From Planctomycetota bacterium (lineage in GTDB: Bacteria; Planctomycetota; Phycisphaerae; Phycisphaerales; SM1A02), in NCBI GenBank assembly GCA_003671055.1, contig QWPV01000023.1, forward strand, positions 1 through 38,089: DNA of 38,089 nt, given 5' to 3'. Below, piece by piece: positions 8,384 to 28,681 of the stretch (positions within the stretch are counted from its first letter, which is position 1; the number at the start of each line of letters is the position of its first letter). The notes beneath the pieces are model-generated. The model did no database searches, was not told where the DNA came from, and was given only the letters and a program-made list of their open reading frames with translations. A program made the translations under genes and the position numbers.

Positions 8384-10273
8384 TCAATACAGCACGCGAA
8401 ATCGAATGGTTGCAACGACTGCTTTTAATTCATCGATGACGGCTTCATCGTAACTCCGATTCACATCGGTGATCACATACCCGCTCGTCTCATCTGTGCG
8501 GAGGGACTGCCCGAGGATATTGATCTTGTGCCGCGCGAGAATGCCGTTCACCTGTGCGAGCACCCCTGGCTGGTTGCGATGCAGGTGAAGGAATCGATGC
8601 GCTCTCGGGGTCGCAGCAAGGGCGATCTCGGGAAGATTCACAGCCCCCGCGGTGGTGCCCGCATTCACGTACTCGACCAACCTTGAGGCAACGAACATGC
8701 CAATGCCCTGCTGCGCTTCAGCCGTTGATCCACCGATATGCGGCGTGAGAATCGTGTTAGGAATCCCGCGCAACGGAGTGTCGAACGGTTCCTTGTTCGA
8801 ATTCGGCTCGTGCGGAAACACATCCACCGCCGCGCCTCCGAGGTGCCCGCTTCGAAGGCTGCGCGCGAGTGCGTCAAGATCAATGATGTGACCGCGCGAA
8901 AGATTCAGCAGCACCGCGCCGTGCTTCATGCGACGCAACTCTCGCTCGCCGATGAGATGCGTGTTGTCGCGGCGACCATCGACATGCACGCTCACGATGT
9001 CGCTGCGCGAAAGCAGATCCGCCATCGACTTCGCCTTGCGTGCGTTGCCGAGTGGCATGACCTCCGCAAGGTCGTGATAGAGCACTTGCATGCCCATTGC
9101 TTCTGCGAGCACGCTCAACTGCGAACCGATGTGACCATAGCCAAGGATGCCAAGCGTCTTGCCGCGCACTTCGGTGCAACCCTGCGCACTCTTGCGCCAA
9201 CCACCCGCGTGCAATACCCGATCACTTTCGATCGCGCGGCGAAGCAGCATGACGATCTCACCAATCGCGAGTTCCACGACGCTGCGCGTATTCGAATACG
9301 GCGCGTTGAACACACCCACGCCGCGTTCTTGCGCTGCAGCGAGATCAACTTGCTCGGTGCCGATGCAGAAGCAACCCACGGCAAGCAAGCGATCCGCATG
9401 CGCGAGTGCTGTGCGAGTCAATCGAGTCTTCGAACGAATGCCGAGAATCGAAACACCCTTCAATGCGCGACAGAGTTCCTCTTCCGGAAGCGCGTCGGAA
9501 ATCGCCTCCACGCGATAGCCTTCTTCTTCGAGTCGCTGCGCTGCATCAGGATGAATGTTCTCGAGCAGTAACGCGACCATCCGCGACTTCGGGTAACTCG
9601 GTGCGCCAGGAAGACTGTAAATCCAGAGCAATTCGTCGACGCCGCGCACCACGCGATCCGCGCGCGCGACCACGCCTTCGCGTTCGATGTTCTCGCAATA
9701 GGCGACGAATTCCGCTGCAGCACCCGCGTCGCGAATCTCGCAATCGGTTGCGCCATCGCCCACCGCAACGACGCGACCCTTGAGTTTCAAACTTCGGACT
9801 GCTTCCGACTTTCCATTGACGCGCGCAAGCGGCGACTTGCGGTCGAAGCCGCTGACCACGCCATCCTTCGTCCAGGTGAACGCATTCGCGAGCACATGGT
9901 CTTCAGGAATGCCGAGCTCCGCGCACACAGGCACGACATACTCACGGAACCCCGAGCTCACCACATAGATGCGTGATGCGTTGCGCTTCACAAGCGCCTT
10001 GTGCCGACGGAAACTCGGCGCGATGCGACGCTTGAGTTCCTTCACACACGCAGCGACATGCGCTTTCGTGATCGTGAGCATTGCAAGTCGTCGCTCGAGC
10101 GAGACATCGATGCCGATGCGCCCCTCCATGCCATCACGCGTAATACCTTCAATCGCGAGCACCTTCGCTTGTGCCTCTGGATCTTTCGCAAGCGCGAGTT
10201 TGGCGATTTCATCGAGGCCTTCGGCGGCGACGATGGTGGAGTCGAAATCAAGAATGAGAGTGACGGCGTCCAT
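8384..10273 (-). CDS. serA: Fused phosphoserine phosphatase / D-3-phosphoglycerate dehydrogenase
   Basis: A 629-residue two-enzyme protein. Residues 1-215 are a HAD-IB phosphoserine phosphatase: DFDST (9-13), VVSSG (104-108), GKSEAV with Lys155, and GDGATD (172-177). Residues about 230-629 are E. coli-type SerA: NAD motif GYGHIG (378-383), catalytic Arg460 (LSRG), Glu489 (HEP) and His512 (TPHIGGST), then an ACT domain with His565, Asn567 and Asn585 matching the serine-inhibition site of E. coli SerA. It would catalyse the first and last steps of serine synthesis; the middle step needs a separate SerC aminotransferase, not seen here. I chose ATG 10273 because GGA lies eight bases upstream; ATG 10279 is too close to it. 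The upstream gene is FkbM and the downstream is the redoxin. Cytoplasmic. Confidence 0.93.
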   Translation of the reverse strand: MDAVTLILDFDSTIVAAEGLDEIAKLALAKDPEAQAKVLAIEGITRDGMEGRIGIDVSLERRLAMLTITKAHVAACVKELKRRIAPSFRRHKALVKRNASRIYVVSSGFREYVVPVCAELGIPEDHVLANAFTWTKDGVVSGFDRKSPLARVNGKSEAVRSLKLKGRVVAVGDGATDCEIRDAGAAAEFVAYCENIEREGVVARADRVVRGVDELLWIYSLPGAPSYPKSRMVALLLENIHPDAAQRLEEEGYRVEAISDALPEEELCRALKGVSILGIRSKTRLTRTALAHADRLLAVGCFCIGTEQVDLAAAQERGVGVFNAPYSNTRSVVELAIGEIVMLLRRAIESDRVLHAGGWRKSAQGCTEVRGKTLGILGYGHIGSQLSVLAEAMGMQVLYHDLAEVMPLGNARKAKSMADLLSRSDIVSVHVDGRRDNTHLIGERELRRMKHGAVLLNLSRGHIIDLDALARSLRSGHLGGAAVDVFPHEPNSNKEPFDTPLRGIPNTILTPHIGGSTAEAQQGIGMFVASRLVEYVNAGTTAGAVNLPEIALAATPRAHRFLHLHRNQPGVLAQVNGILARHKINILGQSLRTDETSGYVITDVNRSYDEAVIDELKAVVATIRFRVLY

Positions 10274-22992: not shown

Positions 22993-23006
22993 CGCGCTAA
23001 CCGCGC
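22992..23006. terminator. Small GC hairpin at a convergent junction
   Basis: GCGCG (22992-22996) and CGCGC (23002-23006) form a 5-bp stem whose 5-base loop holds the minus-strand stop codon, and whose first base is the last base of the + strand stop. It would form on either transcript. It is short and lacks T-runs, so a terminator role is weakly supported. Confidence 0.25.
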
Positions 23007-24121
23007 AACAGATCCGGCGAAATGTCTTCGAGCGTTGCACATCCTGCAAGTGCCATCGCGAGATCGAATTCGGTTTCGAGCAACTCAAGCGCGCGCGCGA
23101 CACCTGCTTCACCGCCAGCGCCAAGGCCCCACAAGATGGGACGACCCGCACTCGCAGCGTGCGCACCGAGTGCGAGAGCACGCAACACATCGACACCGCG
23201 TCTGATTCCGCCATCGACGATCACGCACGCGCGATCGCGGACTGCTGCGGCAATCGCGGGAAGACTTTCGGCGGTTGCCGGTGCGCCGTCCAACTGACGG
23301 CCACCATGATTGCTCACGATGATGCCCTGTGCGCCGGCATCCACTGCGCGCAGCGCATCGTCGACTCGACACACGCCCTTCACAAGAATCGGCAGCGACT
23401 GCTTCGCGATGAGCCACTCCAAATCTTTCCATGAAAGCGACGCGTCGATTGCCCAACCGAGCGCTTCGCCGAGGCCCGCCCCAGTGTGTCCGGTCGGTCC
23501 ACCTGCTGCGCCGCTGCGCATGAGATTCACTGCTTGAATTCCAGCAGGAATGCAGAACCCATTGCGAATGTCTCGTTCGCGCACGCCCCACACTGGCGTA
23601 TCAACGGTCAACACGAGCGCACGACATCCCGCTGCTTGCGCGCGCGCGGAGAGATCAAGCACATGGGCGCGCTCTTTGCCGATGTACAACTGCATCCACA
23701 CATCGGCGTGCTTTGCAACGGCGCAGACTTCTTCAACGCCTGTTGAGGAAAGGCTCGAGAGAATCAGCGGAACGCCACGCGAAGATGCCGCGCGCATCGA
23801 CGCCAATTCGCCATCGGGATGCGCGAGTTTGTGCAACGCTGTCGGCGCGATGATGAATGGGAACGCACTCTTCGAACCGAGCAGGGTTACTGCGGTCTTT
23901 CGACGACTCACATCCACGAGTGCGCGATGGAAAATTCGGATCTCTTCCCACGCGTCGAGATTCCACTGCAGTGTGTGCTCCCCCCACGCGCCGGATCGGT
24001 AGTAATCCGCAGCCATCGTCGTCATGCGTTCGTATGCAACCGCTTCAAGTTCATCCACGCGAAGGAACTGCTTGGGATCGAACGCGGCGCCTGAATCTGG
24101 GGAACTCGATGCATTCAGCAA
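22997..24121 (-). CDS. FMN-dependent 2-hydroxyacid (probably L-lactate) oxidase/dehydrogenase
   Basis: A 374-residue TIM-barrel flavoenzyme. Seen are DYYRSGA near residue 40 (substrate Tyr), FIIAPTALHKLAHPDGE, QLYIGKER with Tyr146, TVDTPVWGVRERDIRNGF, Lys248 in PILVKGV, and SNHGGRQLDGAP with catalytic His272 and Arg275. These are the residues of glycolate oxidase and L-lactate dehydrogenases. Position in a fucose operon that yields L-lactate makes that the likely substrate, though glycolate or other hydroxyacids are possible. The gene overlaps the SDR stop. The best start is TTG 24121, six bases after GGAGG; TTG 24127 is adjacent to that GGAGG and is unlikely. The protein is cytoplasmic. Confidence 0.87.
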   Translation of the reverse strand: MLNASSSPDSGAAFDPKQFLRVDELEAVAYERMTTMAADYYRSGAWGEHTLQWNLDAWEEIRIFHRALVDVSRRKTAVTLLGSKSAFPFIIAPTALHKLAHPDGELASMRAASSRGVPLILSSLSSTGVEEVCAVAKHADVWMQLYIGKERAHVLDLSARAQAAGCRALVLTVDTPVWGVRERDIRNGFCIPAGIQAVNLMRSGAAGGPTGHTGAGLGEALGWAIDASLSWKDLEWLIAKQSLPILVKGVCRVDDALRAVDAGAQGIIVSNHGGRQLDGAPATAESLPAIAAAVRDRACVIVDGGIRRGVDVLRALALGAHAASAGRPILWGLGAGGEAGVARALELLETEFDLAMALAGCATLEDISPDLLRG

Positions 24122-24867
24122 CTCCAACCTCCATCGACAACAAATGTCGCGCCTGTGGTGTACGAACTCTCGTCGCCCGCAAGGTGCAAGACAAGTTCAG
24201 CGATCTCTTCAGGCGTTCCCAAACGCCCGATCGGTTGGCGTGCGACAAATGCTTTGCGAATCTCCGCGCCGCCACCAAGGGCTGCGATGCGTTCATCGAG
24301 TGAGGGTGTCTGCACCGTGCCCGGACAAACTGCGTTGCAACGAATGCCGCGCGCGACGAAATCAGCTGCAACAGACTTCGTGAGTCCAATCACCGCACCT
24401 TTCGTCGTCTGATACGCAAACCGATTCGGCACGCCCTTCAAACTCGACGCGACACTCGACATGTTCACGATCGACCCACATCCCTGCGCGAGCATCGTCG
24501 GCAAACAGGCGCGAATCGTGCGGAACATCGACGCCACATTGAGATCGAAAGCGAACGCGAGGTCCGCAGCAGTTGCATCGAGGATGGATCCTTGATGCAC
24601 CACTCCCGCGCAGTTGAAGAGCACGTGTACCTCGCCCCACGCAGCGATTGTCTGCGCAACGCTTGCATCACTGCGCACATCCATCAGCGCGGTGTGCATG
24701 GTTGGATGCTCGGCTTTCAGCACAGCCAGCGCAGGCGCATTGATGTCGGTGGCAAGCACCTCAGCGCCCTCGCGCAAGAACGCGACTGCTGCTGCGCGTC
24801 CGATTCCTTGCCCTGCAGCGGTGATGATTGCGCGTTTACCTGCGAGTCGACCAGATCCTGTACTCAT
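24115..24867 (-). CDS. SDR oxidoreductase, probable 2-keto-3-deoxy-L-fuconate dehydrogenase
   Basis: A 250-residue short-chain dehydrogenase: TAAGQGIG (16-23), Asp41 (ATDIN) which favours NAD, NCAG (85-88), catalytic Ser near 137-138 (NMSSVAS), Tyr152 and Lys156 (YQTTK), and a typical end TFVVDGGWSC. The start RLAGKRAIITAAGQGIG is like the BDH2/2-keto-3-deoxy-L-fuconate dehydrogenase branch. In Xanthomonas the equivalent enzyme oxidises 2-keto-3-deoxy-L-fuconate to the 2,4-diketo acid. The gene begins at ATG 24867 within ATGA shared with the L-fuconate dehydratase stop, with GGAG seven bases upstream. The assignment rests on both sequence and neighbours. Confidence 0.87.
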   Translation of the reverse strand: MSTGSGRLAGKRAIITAAGQGIGRAAAVAFLREGAEVLATDINAPALAVLKAEHPTMHTALMDVRSDASVAQTIAAWGEVHVLFNCAGVVHQGSILDATAADLAFAFDLNVASMFRTIRACLPTMLAQGCGSIVNMSSVASSLKGVPNRFAYQTTKGAVIGLTKSVAADFVARGIRCNAVCPGTVQTPSLDERIAALGGGAEIRKAFVARQPIGRLGTPEEIAELVLHLAGDESSYTTGATFVVDGGWSC

Positions 24868-26201
24868 AATTGTGCTCCCACGGGCGCTGCTTCGGCGCGC
24901 CGTCTCAACCACTCACTGCCGTTTGGATATGCAAACGCGCGCAAAGTTTCTTCCTTGATATCAGAGGAATACCCAGGCATGTTCGGCGATTGATACCGTC
25001 CACCGCGCACCACACAGGGATCCTCGAAGTGTTCATGCAGATGATCGACGTACTCGCACACGCGACCTTCGTCGCTGCCTGTGATCGCGCAGTACTCGAA
25101 GTGCACGAGATGGTTCACAAGTTCACAGAGTCCGACGCCGCCAGCGTGAGGACACACGCGCACGCCAAACTTTCGCGCCATGAGTAACACCGCAAGCACT
25201 TCATTTACGCCGCCAAGTCTGCACGCATCAATCTGACAGAACTCAATCGCGTTCGCCTGCAGCAGTTGCTTGAACATCACGCGGTTCTGACATTGCTCAC
25301 CGGTTGCTACCCCAATCGGCGCAACTGCACGCGCAATCGCGGCGTGACCGAGGACATCATCAGGCGATGTTGGTTCTTCGATCCACCACAGATCAAACTG
25401 CGCGAGTGCATTGGTCCATTGAATGGCTTCACCAACATCCCAGCGCTGATTCGCATCGATCATCAACTTGCGCGTGGGACCGATCTCGGCGCGAATGATG
25501 CCCACGCGGCGAATGTCGTCTGCGAGATCTGCGCCGACTTTCACCTTGAAGTGGTTGAAGCCCTCTGCGATCGACTCGCGGCACAAGCGACGGATCTTCT
25601 CGTCGCTGTAGCCGAGCCATCCGCAACTCGTCGTATAGGCGGGATAGCCATGCGATGCGATGTGGCGCATGCGTTCCGCGCGATGCGGCTCTTCTGCGCG
25701 AAGGATCGCGAGCGCCTCGTCCTCGGTGAGCGCGTCGGTGATGTATCGAAAATCAATCGCCGCAACGAGCTCTTCACTTGTGAGCGCGCAGAGATGTTTC
25801 CACAACGGTTCGCCTGCAGCTTTCGCGAGCAAGTCCCACACACCATTCACAACCGCAGCAGTCGCAAGATGCACCACGCCTTTCTCAGGACCTACCCAGC
25901 GCAGTTGCGAATCACTCGTGAGCGTGCGCCAGAATCCGCGCATGTCACCTTTGATCGATGCGAGCGTGCGACCGACAACGAGCGGCTCAAGCAATCGCAC
26001 CGCCGCGACGCACAAGTCGGTGCCTCGACCAATCGTAAAGGTGAAGCCGCGTCCTTCGAGCGTCGGATGATCAGTAAGCACTCGAACGTACGCCGCCGAA
26101 TAGTCGGGATCGGGGTGCATCGCATCGGAGCCGTCGAGCGTGTCACTCGTCGGAAACCGAAGATCGATGACTTCAAGGCGTACGATGCGTGCGTGCAACA
26201 T
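24864..26201 (-). CDS. fucD: L-fuconate dehydratase (ENOSF1/FucD type)
   Basis: A 445-residue enolase-superfamily enzyme converting L-fuconate to 2-keto-3-deoxy-L-fuconate. It matches human ENOSF1 and Xanthomonas FucD along its length, for example RGFWRTLTSDSQLRWVGPEK, AYTTSCGWLGYSD and CEYVDHLHEHF. Catalytic and metal residues are all present: Lys219 and Lys221 (KVKVGA), Asp249 (IDANQRWD), Glu275 (WIEEPTSPDD), Glu302 (TGEQC), His352 (PHAGGVGLCE) and Glu383. ATG 26201 fits the family start and overlaps the lactonase gene by 29 bases. There is no obvious Shine-Dalgarno, so coupling to the upstream gene is likely. The protein is the best-supported member of the cluster and fixes the pathway. 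Confidence 0.95.
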   Translation of the reverse strand: MLHARIVRLEVIDLRFPTSDTLDGSDAMHPDPDYSAAYVRVLTDHPTLEGRGFTFTIGRGTDLCVAAVRLLEPLVVGRTLASIKGDMRGFWRTLTSDSQLRWVGPEKGVVHLATAAVVNGVWDLLAKAAGEPLWKHLCALTSEELVAAIDFRYITDALTEDEALAILRAEEPHRAERMRHIASHGYPAYTTSCGWLGYSDEKIRRLCRESIAEGFNHFKVKVGADLADDIRRVGIIRAEIGPTRKLMIDANQRWDVGEAIQWTNALAQFDLWWIEEPTSPDDVLGHAAIARAVAPIGVATGEQCQNRVMFKQLLQANAIEFCQIDACRLGGVNEVLAVLLMARKFGVRVCPHAGGVGLCELVNHLVHFEYCAITGSDEGRVCEYVDHLHEHFEDPCVVRGGRYQSPNMPGYSSDIKEETLRAFAYPNGSEWLRRRAEAAPVGAQL

Positions 26202-27105
26202 TGCGCGTGAGGTTACCCGAGGTTTCCATTGGGCTGCGCGGAGAAAGTTGGTACTCGCGCACCGCGTTGAGTCCGAAGATTGCGTCGCGTTCGGTCGGCG
26301 TGAGTGATTGCATGCACTCGAGCGCGACGCTCTGCCACGCAGACGCACTCGACCGCAGTGTCACGACTGGCCAATCGCTTCCCCACAGAAGTCGTGCCGC
26401 GCCGAAACATTCGAGCGCTGCCTCGATATACGGCTGCACATCCGCAACGGTGGAGGTCTCACTTGCCTCCGTGACCAGCCCTGAAAGTTTGCAGCACGCA
26501 TTCGGATGCACCGCGATCGCACGAAGTTGCGTGCGCCACGCGGTGAAATCAGTCCAAGTCCTCCCCTCACGCACTGCAGGCTTCGCAACATGGTCAAGCA
26601 CGATGCGCAACGGCGACTTGAATCGCGCGGCGATCTCAAGAAACTCGAGCAACACGCTCATGTGCTTCGGAAGGATGAGCGCATCGAACGCGCGTGATCG
26701 CTCGCGATTCGCGATGCACTCAAGCGACGCCACGACTTCCTCGCGTAAGAGATAGCGAGCATCAGAAAGGTCTTGCAACATCGGTCGCACGCCGACGAGC
26801 AACGCGTCATCAAGTGCGTCGAGCGCGCGCGATGTCTCGACAGCACCATCAAGCGGCAGCCATCCAACCACACCCGCCGCGCGTTCCCAGTGCTTTGCGA
26901 TGTCGAGCAAGAATTTTGTCTCCGCGATCGTCGGCGCTGCTTGCACGAGTACCGCAGTTTGCATGCCACACGCGTCGAGTGTTTCAGTCGCTTCAGCAAT
27001 CGTGAACTCTCGTTGCAGCGCCAACGGCGCTTGTGCGAGCCATGCGTAATCGCCTCGCGATGGAGTCCAAAGGTGAAGGTGTGCGTCGACGGTGCGCGCA
27101 GTCAT
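26173..27105 (-). CDS. Amidohydrolase_2 family, probable L-fuconolactonase
   Basis: A 310-residue TIM-barrel metallo-hydrolase. The metal motif is AHLHLW (8-13), followed by LVQAAPTIAETKFLLD, GVRPMLQD, LDHVAKPAVREG (His as ligand/base), CCKLSGLVTEA and LLWGSDWPVV (Asp). These are shared with L-fuconolactonase and other sugar lactonases, which open L-fucono-lactone to L-fuconate. The start ATG 27105 lies in ATGA with the stop of the Gfo/Idh gene. The 28 residues before it in the longer frame are noncoding in look. Related L-rhamnono-lactonases share this fold, so the specificity comes from the neighbours. Confidence 0.88.
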   Translation of the reverse strand: MTARTVDAHLHLWTPSRGDYAWLAQAPLALQREFTIAEATETLDACGMQTAVLVQAAPTIAETKFLLDIAKHWERAAGVVGWLPLDGAVETSRALDALDDALLVGVRPMLQDLSDARYLLREEVVASLECIANRERSRAFDALILPKHMSVLLEFLEIAARFKSPLRIVLDHVAKPAVREGRTWTDFTAWRTQLRAIAVHPNACCKLSGLVTEASETSTVADVQPYIEAALECFGAARLLWGSDWPVVTLRSSASAWQSVALECMQSLTPTERDAIFGLNAVREYQLSPRSPMETSGNLTRNVARTHRTP

Positions 27106-28202
27106 GCGTCGCTCGCAAAAGACGCGATCGGCGTGGACCCCGCACGCTGACTCGCGTAACACGCTTCCACCAGCGCCATGGTCTTGCACGCATCGAGCGC
27201 GCTCGAAACGAGTGTTTCATCTTCTCCTGCCACAAATCGCTGCAGATTGCACATCGGTCCCTCGAACGCTTCGATGAACCACGAACCGCGCAACGCGATG
27301 CTCTCCCAACCCCGCGCCGCATCAAGATGTACACGCAAGGTGTCTGCCTCGCCTTCTGGATACGCGAGATTCGCGCCAAATGTCGCGATCGCCGCGCCTT
27401 GCGTGCCCTCAAGACGCAATTCGCTTCGCTGCCCGTCGCCGCCAAAGGAGTGATGATGATTCGTCATCACGAGCGCACGCACATCGCTGCCATAATCAAG
27501 AATCGCCGCCGACTTCGAACTCGCGAGGTGCATCGCCGACGGATGTTGCACCGTTTGCGCCCACACACCCTTCGGTTCACCGAGTAGCGCGCGTGTGAGA
27601 TCAAGGTAGTGAATCGAGTGCATCAGAAATTCCATGCGCTCATACTTCGCAAGGAACGGCCACAATTCCCACGGCATTGTGCAATGCACACTCGTCTCGC
27701 AATCCACGATACGACCGAGTGCGCCGCGCGTGAGCAAGTCGCTCAGCGCCAACATCGCAGGCGAGAATCGAAGTTGAAAATTCACCGCGATAGTCAGGTT
27801 TCGCGCGTGACAGAGTGCGAGTAAACGCGATGCTTCTGCGAGATCTCTTCCGAAGGGTTTCTGCACCAGCGCAGCAGATCCAACTGGAAGCGCACTCAAG
27901 ATGGACGCGATGGCTTCAGGCGGCACAGCGATGTCAAACACCGCGCGCGGAGTCGCTATCGCTTCGTCGAGTGTTGCGAACACACGCGTTTTCGCAACGC
28001 TCGCGACCTCTGCAGCGTTTGCGGCATCGATGTCAAACACGCCCGCGATTTCAAACCCAATGGCGCGGTACGCAGGAAGATGCGCCCCTCGCACGATCCC
28101 ACCTGTACCGATGCACACGATTTCGCGCGGCGATCGAGGCCGTTTCCACTGCTGACGGAGTTCAGCGAGCGTGATGACGGGCCCGTCGCTCATAGGGATC
28201 AT
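27102..28202 (-). CDS. Gfo/Idh/MocA dehydrogenase, candidate L-fucose dehydrogenase
   Basis: A 366-residue cytoplasmic oxidoreductase without a Tat signal, unlike the relative at 14378. NAD(P) site CIGTGGIVRGAH near residues 30-41; the family's EKP motif reads VQKPFG, with Lys kept. Next are NFQLRFSPAM and HSIHYLDLTRALLG, where the His and Asp fit the catalytic region. In the fucose pathway the missing first step is oxidation of L-fucose to its lactone, and this protein is the only unassigned dehydrogenase in the operon. That role is inference; Xanthomonas uses a different family (aldo-keto reductase or SDR). It could instead be an inositol-like or other sugar dehydrogenase. The start ATG 28202 lies in ATGA with the lipoprotein stop; ATG 28193 is an alternative. 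Confidence 0.85.
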   Translation of the reverse strand: MIPMSDGPVITLAELRQQWKRPRSPREIVCIGTGGIVRGAHLPAYRAIGFEIAGVFDIDAANAAEVASVAKTRVFATLDEAIATPRAVFDIAVPPEAIASILSALPVGSAALVQKPFGRDLAEASRLLALCHARNLTIAVNFQLRFSPAMLALSDLLTRGALGRIVDCETSVHCTMPWELWPFLAKYERMEFLMHSIHYLDLTRALLGEPKGVWAQTVQHPSAMHLASSKSAAILDYGSDVRALVMTNHHHSFGGDGQRSELRLEGTQGAAIATFGANLAYPEGEADTLRVHLDAARGWESIALRGSWFIEAFEGPMCNLQRFVAGEDETLVSSALDACKTMALVEACYASQRAGSTPIASFASDA

Positions 28203-28681
28203 GGAGTTTTTGTCGCTTCAACCACCGGCAGCACCACCGACACGGGATGCATGCCTTCAGCGATCTTCAACGCGATAAGAAACTTCTGCCCGAATGCTTC
28301 CGTCGCTTGCTTATCAAGCGCGCGACCATGCCGCACCACGAAGTTTCCGAGTTCCGAATCGATGCCAAATCGCACGCTTCTCGGTTCAACACGCTCAGGC
28401 TTCGACACATCCACCACCACATACAGCGCACTCTCGCCACGATAGAAATCTCCGCGATACGGCAGATCAATCTCCCCTGCTGCTCGATCGATGCGCGGAC
28501 GCGGCACGCCGCCTTCACTCGCCTGACGTTCATCCGCGTCGGACATCGCGTGTGCAACGCGCAGCGTGGAAAGCGTCACCGCCCACACGCGATCTGCATT
28601 ACCTTCAATCTTCACAGTCGTTCCGCACGCGGCGAAAAACACCATCGAACAAAGCGTGATGACTCGAGCACACACATGCAT
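28199..28681 (-). CDS. Small putative lipoprotein of unknown function
   Basis: A 160-residue protein with lipoprotein signal MHVCARVITLCSMVFFAAC, with Cys19 in lipobox FAAC. The mature part opens GTTVKIEGNADRVWAVTLSTLRV and has alternating strands (ALYVVVDVSKPERV, RSVRFGID). The pattern faintly recalls DUF3568 envelope proteins; I do not assign it firmly. It sits at the head of the coupled fucose genes (ATGA overlap with the Gfo/Idh gene) and 38 bases after the Rrf2 gene. Whether it serves the pathway, for example in an envelope transporter, or is just cotranscribed is unknown. Confidence 0.6.
   Translation of the reverse strand: MHVCARVITLCSMVFFAACGTTVKIEGNADRVWAVTLSTLRVAHAMSDADERQASEGGVPRPRIDRAAGEIDLPYRGDFYRGESALYVVVDVSKPERVEPRSVRFGIDSELGNFVVRHGRALDKQATEAFGQKFLIALKIAEGMHPVSVVLPVVEATKTP

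Follow-up and report, generated by a model that had tools for sequence, protein, structure and literature searches.

The closest described counterparts of the locus analysed here are the oxidative L-fucose pathway of Xanthomonas campestris and Herbaspirillum huttiense (route 3), the L-fucose enzymes of mammals and the L-rhamnose regulons of some bacteria. In the passages of PMC11199699 drawn on here, the crystal structure of L-2-keto-3-deoxyfuconate 4-dehydrogenase (L-KDFDH) has its substrate, L-2-keto-3-deoxyfuconate (L-KDF), bound by Arg148, Arg192, Arg214 and Trp252; the enzyme is also reported to accept D-2-keto-3-deoxypentonate, and the diketo intermediate to be common to the fucose and rhamnose routes. 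The hydrolase of the mammalian pathway is described as unidentified in sections 2.2 and 3.5 of PMC13406643, according to which FAHD1 has been both proposed and doubted. For rhamnose, the relevant part of PMC3870299 assigned lldD and lldEFG to RhaR regulons in certain members of the Actinomycetales and Rhodobacterales and read this as an extension of the route to pyruvate.

Here we analysed 38,089 nucleotides of contig QWPV01000023.1 from a Planctomycetota bacterium (the whole stretch is referred to as the window), which carries an operon encoding an L-fuconate dehydratase (FucD) and, as its fifth gene, a flavin mononucleotide (FMN)-dependent 2-hydroxyacid oxidase. With moderate confidence, we read the operon as a route 3 L-fucose pathway whose hydrolase is encoded off the operon and whose L-lactate would be turned into pyruvate by the FMN oxidase.

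Gene content of the operon and the fucose pathway

Five genes on the minus strand, between 28,202 bp and 22,997 bp, abutted or overlapped one another in the order Gfo/Idh/MocA-family dehydrogenase (Gfo), lactonase, FucD, SDR and FMN oxidase (Table 1), and are presumably co-expressed. ATGA overlaps were present at the Gfo/lactonase and FucD/SDR junctions, and the ATG of fucD at 26,201 bp was overlapped by the 3′-end of the lactonase gene. The start of the FMN gene lay within the 3′-terminal part of the SDR gene, where the TTG at 24,121 bp was better spaced from a GGAGG than the TTG at 24,127 bp. The genes named by the original prediction were confirmed within the coordinates it gave, on the minus strand, as was the overlap of the oxidase with the SDR; it had left the Gfo gene, which lies within the same coordinates, unnamed.

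Table 1. Features of the fucose operon and of the gene upstream of it (coordinates in the window)
Feature	Position (bp)	Strand	Evidence and proposed role
160-amino acid lipoprotein-like protein	28,199–28,681	-	4-nucleotide overlap with Gfo start; perhaps the transcript's first gene
Gfo/Idh/MocA-family dehydrogenase	27,102–28,202	-	Pfam PF01408/PF22725/PF02894; candidate for the L-fucose 1-dehydrogenase, assigned to step 1 by elimination (substrate inferred)
Amidohydro_2 lactonase	26,173–27,105	-	Pfam PF04909; probable L-fuconolactonase (step 2)
FucD/ENOSF1-type L-fuconate dehydratase	24,864–26,201	-	phmmer to PDB chains (step 3)
SDR, L-2-keto-3-deoxyfuconate 4-dehydrogenase	24,115–24,867	-	PDB matches and four substrate residues (step 4)
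FMN-dependent 2-hydroxyacid oxidase	22,997–24,127 (TTG start 24,127 or 24,121)	-	PF01070; probable L-lactate oxidase, judged from sequence

A phmmer search showed that the nearest solved structures to FucD were human ENOSF1 (4a35, E 1.3e-176) and L-fuconate dehydratase (1yey/2hxt, E ~1e-171). The next group of PDB chains reached only 2.4e-45, approximately 130 orders of magnitude worse than the FucD/ENOSF1 chains, and the earlier claim that this dehydratase fixes the operon as an oxidative L-fucose one was upheld (E 1e-171 to 1e-176). The lactonase and SDR genes said to flank it were in place. The Amidohydro_2 family of the lactonase was confirmed; its best NCBIfam model was L-fucono-1,5-lactonase (182 bits, below the cut-off of 400) and 4dlf, annotated 'Amidohydrolase 2', was its sole PDB match at E ≤ 1e-10. 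The structures nearest to the SDR were DHRS6 (2ag5) and 8y11/8xwk/8y4j, with 274 bits to human DHRS6/BDH2 and 273 bits to the H. huttiense L-KDFDH (8y11). Alignment to 8y11 showed that all four of the L-KDF-binding residues were kept; as BDH2 also keeps them, they do not separate BDH2 from L-KDFDH. The SDR was ruled out as the L-fucose 1-dehydrogenase, being far closer to L-KDFDH/BDH2 and keeping the L-KDF residues.

The AlphaFold model of the Gfo enzyme (predicted local distance difference test (pLDDT) 89.8) had 1,5-anhydrofructose reductase, glucose-fructose oxidoreductase and L-glucose/inositol dehydrogenase as its nearest folds. The model thus resembles sugar dehydrogenases of its own family; as these neighbours do not fix a substrate, they were set aside as a guide to it. 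Fucose use by the window's genome was supported by two matches to GH29 alpha-L-fucosidase elsewhere in it. On the identities of FucD and the SDR, the assignment of the operon to the oxidative (non-phosphorylative) L-fucose pathway, route 3, is well supported. The Gfo/Idh enzyme would oxidise C1 of L-fucose, the lactonase would open the lactone, FucD would dehydrate L-fuconate and the SDR would oxidise 2-keto-3-deoxy-L-fuconate to 2,4-diketo-3-deoxy-L-fuconate.

The fifth gene position and the missing hydrolase

FucD loci were surveyed in 80 of the 158 confirmed relatives. The named relatives of the locus were planctomycete metagenome-assembled genomes (MAGs), the nearest being L003, a Phycisphaerales bacterium from Baikal. 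The order Gfo-lactonase-FucD-SDR was followed by an FAH-family gene in nine loci (L006, L007, L008, L009, L010, L012, L016, L020 and L025) and by the FMN gene in three, with Gfo leading both orders. In L006, the FucG of this slot lay at 10,064–10,939 bp. L018 had the same first four genes and ended inside the SDR; L027 had an FAH gene after the SDR and lacked the Gfo end. The three FAH proteins of this slot tested by Pfam or NCBIfam belonged to PF01557, and their best NCBIfam model was 2,4-didehydro-3-deoxy-L-rhamnonate hydrolase (419 bits, cut-off 500). As an FAH protein fills the slot in relatives and the diketo intermediate is common to the fucose and rhamnose routes, the FMN gene sits where the relatives keep the L-lactate-forming hydrolase (FucG).

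The operon contained no FucG-type gene, and none was detected among the PF01557 matches in the draft assemblies of four genomes of the genus: the window's own (G000), G309 and G345 (loci L004 and L005) and G353 (L003, whose membership of the genus was assumed from 84% FucD identity). The original prediction, which had the route yield L-lactate, missed this point. Each of the four genomes encoded a free-standing FAH-family protein of ~220 amino acids and a second, fumarylacetoacetase-sized PF01557 match (443–459 amino acids in the relatives, a fragment at a contig end in G000). The free-standing proteins were 79–100% identical to that of G000 and 35–41% identical to FucG. In G000 the gene lay in the region 52,403–53,061 bp of contig C2 (locus L175, 9403–10,062 bp) among ABC-transporter and hflKC-type genes, away from the fucose genes, and the PDB relatives of its product included L-2,4-diketo-3-deoxyrhamnonate hydrolase (8gsr, 148 bits) and the acylpyruvase FAHD1 (107–108 bits).

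A misplaced FucG was rejected. The C2 match and the corresponding proteins of G309, G345 and G353 were of the free-standing kind. The second G000 match (contig C44) was truncated where its contig stops, and tblastn showed no similarity between it and FucG at E ≤ 0.001. Nor was a fucose-specific role of the free-standing protein supported, as PF01557 was matched in 58 of 61 genomes of the family, most of which had no fucD. The best FAH matches of G251, G310 and G346 were also of this kind only. By elimination only, the free-standing protein is the best candidate for cleavage of the diketo acid. This acylpyruvate would probably yield pyruvate and L-lactate through a hydrolase from another locus, with the C2 protein as the likeliest one.

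If the FMN enzyme acted on a pathway intermediate, such as L-fuconate (itself a 2-hydroxy acid), or otherwise replaced FucG, this would account for its place in exactly the FucG slot in genomes where no FucG-type gene was found. We consider this highly improbable. FMN_dh enzymes act by oxidising 2-hydroxy acids, and we know of none that hydrolyses acylpyruvates; L-fuconate is already used by FucD, and the active site was the same as in stand-alone relatives from genomes without fucD.

The lack of FucG beside FucD and the SDR was discarded as a peculiarity of the FMN operon, as 10 of the 80 loci had Gfo, FucD and SDR without an FAH match in the chain. Three of these ten ended within 0.9 kb of the SDR, and G251 had the same layout. 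Two other arrangements were observed: L177 and L178 (G346 and G310) encoded Gfo-lactonase-FucD with no adjoining SDR or FAH and with an OprB porin next, and L075 and L076 (Rhodobacteraceae MAGs) carried Gfo-FAH-FucD with a further FucD-like match upstream of it but without an SDR match in the vicinity.

The FMN oxidase, its substrate and its linkage to fucD

The FMN enzyme was a PF01070 member (418.6 bits). Y42, Y148, D176, R183, K250, H274 and R277 were invariant in an alignment of 20 rows; we take this Tyr/Tyr/Asp/Arg/Lys/His/Arg set to be the catalytic set of the FMN 2-hydroxyacid oxidase family. The window's own assembly (95.8% complete) contained no other near-full-length PF01070 match, the second being partial (36 bits), and TIGR00273 (LutB) had no match at E ≤ 0.001 in G000, G345 or G353 and one in G309. 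Of these two types of L-lactate oxidiser, G000 therefore yielded the FMN enzyme alone. Leu126 occupied the position at which glycolate oxidases have Trp, and Leu was present there in 19 of 19 sequences (the window's and 18 relatives). The L-lactate oxidase triplets in Table 2 of PMC7020209 are Met/Leu/Phe (Nostoc) and Met/Val/Phe (Chlamydomonas), against Thr/Trp/Val in glycolate oxidases, and L-lactate was preferred by cyanobacteria and all other prokaryotes considered in its sections 2.3–2.4. L-Lactate is thus the probable substrate, judging from these residues.

A different reading is that the operon degrades L-fucose together with its C4 equivalents D-arabinose and L-galactose, and that the oxidase is a broad one for the acid released (L-lactate, glycolate or L-glycerate). 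As L-KDFDH accepts D-2-keto-3-deoxypentonate in the cited part of PMC11199699, D-arabinose is a possible substrate sugar, and cleavage of that route's product would give glycolate. Among single-domain PDB chains, plant glycolate oxidases and human HAO1 were closest to the FMN enzyme in sequence (290–301 bits); two double-length L-lactate oxidase chains outscored these by summing two domains of ~195 bits each. Its model (pLDDT 86.6) aligned best with the glycolate-type HAO1 (Z 52.0, root-mean-square deviation 1.6, 351 residues), with L-lactate oxidase (7f20, Z 48.6) ranking just behind spinach glycolate oxidase (1gox, Z 49.1), and one signature position was glycolate-oxidase-like. Closeness of fold, however, does not report substrate, and the invariant Leu at the Trp position and the L-lactate preference of the prokaryotic enzymes in the sections of PMC7020209 cited above make a broad oxidase rather unlikely.

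Linkage was surveyed in 61 genomes of the family, with thresholds of E ≤ 1e-20 for the FMN enzyme and E ≤ 1e-60 for FucD. The oxidase was found in 21, fucD in 11 and both in five; the two genes were adjacent in G000, G309 and G345 and on separate contigs in G310 and G251, and six genomes had fucD without the oxidase. With L003 as the fourth case, adjacency and the overlap with the SDR were observed in 4/4 genomes of the genus. Beyond the genus, 4 of 36 further genomes with FucD had an FMN match, each on a contig other than that of fucD. Among the 80 FucD loci the FMN enzyme was present in L003–L005, and at 39% identity in L071 (Pseudomonas japonica), ~5.6 kb from fucD; the latter lay beside DapA-like and MFS genes and was left out of the count of fucose-linked lactate modules. 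The proposal that the oxidase belongs to the fucose pathway was thus supported only in part: by the linkage test set in the original prediction, it stood within the genus and failed as a general rule. The FMN enzyme is thus a general enzyme recruited beside fucD once, in the window's genus.

Several points weigh against a lactate-oxidising role in fucose catabolism. Neither FucG nor a transporter nor a proven fucose dehydrogenase was found, which leaves the formation of L-lactate hypothetical. The signature of the FMN enzyme was Thr/Leu/Leu, which shares one position of the three with the Nostoc L-lactate oxidase and one with glycolate oxidase. It scored below the NCBIfam cut-offs for L-lactate oxidase (TIGR02708, 252/645.5) and LldD/lactate dehydrogenase (NF033901, 245/550; NF008398, 278/376) and is therefore not filed as an L-lactate oxidase or LldD equivalog. 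Sixteen of the 21 oxidase-bearing family genomes had no fucD, and in 7 of the 15 family loci fetched around it the oxidase stood near imuA-like genes; the gene family after it gave a weak imuA match in L162, ahead of imuB- and dnaE-type genes. Finally, the flanks were syntenic on both sides across the genus, so the 4/4 adjacency is one inherited arrangement, and it was dropped as independent evidence once this was found.

This synteny would also fit a general-purpose lactate or hydroxyacid oxidase that came to lie by fucD in the genus ancestor and is co-transcribed with it without a special fucose role, as would the relatives of 55–60% identity that stand apart from fucD in family genomes. Against this, the SDR overlap was kept in all four genomes despite differing genes directly downstream of the FMN gene, and since no second gene of this kind was found in G000, fucose-derived lactate would meet the FMN enzyme anyway. 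We regard a mere neighbour as quite improbable.

Lactate genes were also sought in the 80 loci with E. coli LldP, LldD and YkgEFG as probes. LutB-type genes were found on the fucD strand in L021 (a Gemmatimonadetes MAG), L028 (a Salinivenus MAG) and L029 (Thermosporothrix hazakensis). L021 encoded SDR, FAH, FucD, fucosidase, an unassigned frame and YkgE-type and YkgF-type proteins; L028 encoded an LUD/4Fe-4S protein, MFS, FucD, lactonase, SDR and FAH; and L029 encoded FucD, a GH29 fucosidase, an unassigned frame, SDR, an LUD-domain protein and an LUD/4Fe-4S/CCG protein. All three LutB-type proteins were under the TIGR00273 cut-off of 444.8 (198, 334 and 379 bits), L021 being cut by the contig end. 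LutB-type genes of at least 187 bits numbered 34 copies in 31 of the 50 genomes examined (50 of the 80), which gave 3 seen in the fetched loci against 0.11 expected by chance; this estimate is post hoc, with rounded genome sizes and a 187-bit line of our own choosing. It seems that a lactate module was added to FucD clusters repeatedly, by different enzymes.

LutA-LutB-LutC-type genes overlapping an FAH hydrolase were observed separately in G299 and G341 (L196, 9979–13,815 bp; L197, 9493–13,313 bp), with zinc alcohol dehydrogenase and epimerase-like genes upstream, a divergent sugar-binding protein gene and fucD on another contig. Because of these upstream genes and the unlinked fucD the locus was set aside as a fucose case; perhaps it serves a different deoxysugar and brings a lactate module of its own.

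We therefore retain the reading of a route 3 pathway with an off-operon hydrolase and an FMN oxidase acting on its L-lactate. The lactate role is favoured because the catalytic set is kept, Leu stands at the Trp position and no other such oxidiser was found in G000, and it is backed by the LutB-type genes of three FucD clusters and by the rhamnose regulon parallel. In the FucG slot, the enzyme would oxidise L-lactate to pyruvate, probably reducing O2 to H2O2 as soluble family members do, and all fucose carbon would enter as pyruvate. A more specific version is tentative and somewhat doubtful: the genus may have lost FucG, with the general free-standing FAH acylpyruvase completing the pathway and a soluble L-lactate oxidase taking the slot and pulling the reaction, to give two pyruvates per fucose.

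Upstream of the operon, the lipoprotein-like gene was kept at 62–64% in L003, L004 and L005, and Pfam and NCBIfam searches with its product gave no match. Elsewhere in the window, the minus strand between 8384 bp and 10,279 bp encoded a fusion of a HAD phosphatase with a pair of D-3-phosphoglycerate-dehydrogenase-type domains and an ACT domain, possibly for serine biosynthesis. A DUF1501 protein on the plus strand (34,924–36,735 bp) was listed as overlapping a 906-amino acid frame (32,553–35,273 bp) by 350 nucleotides; its true start probably lies further in.

Comparison with known systems

The pathway is an ordinary one in an unusual edition. The lack of a FucG gene is the point that most deserves a test, and the pathway-specific role of the oxidase is limited to one genus. 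The original prediction had named the oxidase as not known to be a standard member of the Xanthomonas-type cluster, and in the parts of the open-access PMC literature consulted no such position was described for the L-fucose pathway. Nor did they mention a FucD cluster that contains an FMN oxidase or LutABC genes; subscription journals and preprints lay outside the search.

Like route 3 of X. campestris and H. huttiense, the operon has FucD, a KDFDH-type SDR and an Amidohydro_2 lactonase in one cluster. It differs in lacking FucG, which was not detected elsewhere in the genome either, in having a Gfo/Idh enzyme instead of their SDR-type fucose dehydrogenase and in the added FMN oxidase. The planctomycete FucG operons share its first four genes and their order (FucD/SDR identity 54–71% combined), whereas their fifth gene encodes an FAH-family hydrolase.

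The mammalian set of HSD17B14, ENOSF1 and BDH2 is also similar, as FucD was nearest to ENOSF1 and the SDR as close to BDH2 as to bacterial KDFDH, and the last hydrolase is unassigned in both (for mammals, section 3.5 of PMC13406643). Here the genes form a bacterial operon, and the first enzyme is not of the HSD17B14 (SDR) type. If the version with the free-standing acylpyruvase is true, an ENOSF1-type dehydratase, a BDH2-like dehydrogenase, an acylpyruvase and an HAO1-like oxidase would make a bacterial counterpart of the mammalian route, and an FAHD1-type candidate for the mammalian hydrolase would become directly testable.

In the rhamnose regulons with lldD or lldEFG, as presented in the part of PMC3870299 cited above, a deoxyhexose route is likewise carried to pyruvate by an L-lactate oxidiser. 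That case concerns another sugar, the phosphorylated RhaEW route, regulon membership and an lldD called a dehydrogenase, whereas here the genes overlap in one operon, to which no regulator gene could be assigned. If our reading is right, a sugar pathway has been stretched beyond its textbook end by a recruited lactate-oxidising enzyme, and separate lineages have used unrelated enzymes to do so. The FucD clusters of L021, L028 and L029 also have genes for oxidising L-lactate next to fucD and on its strand, but theirs are of the iron-sulphur LutB/LdhH type, non-homologous to the FMN oxidase of the window.

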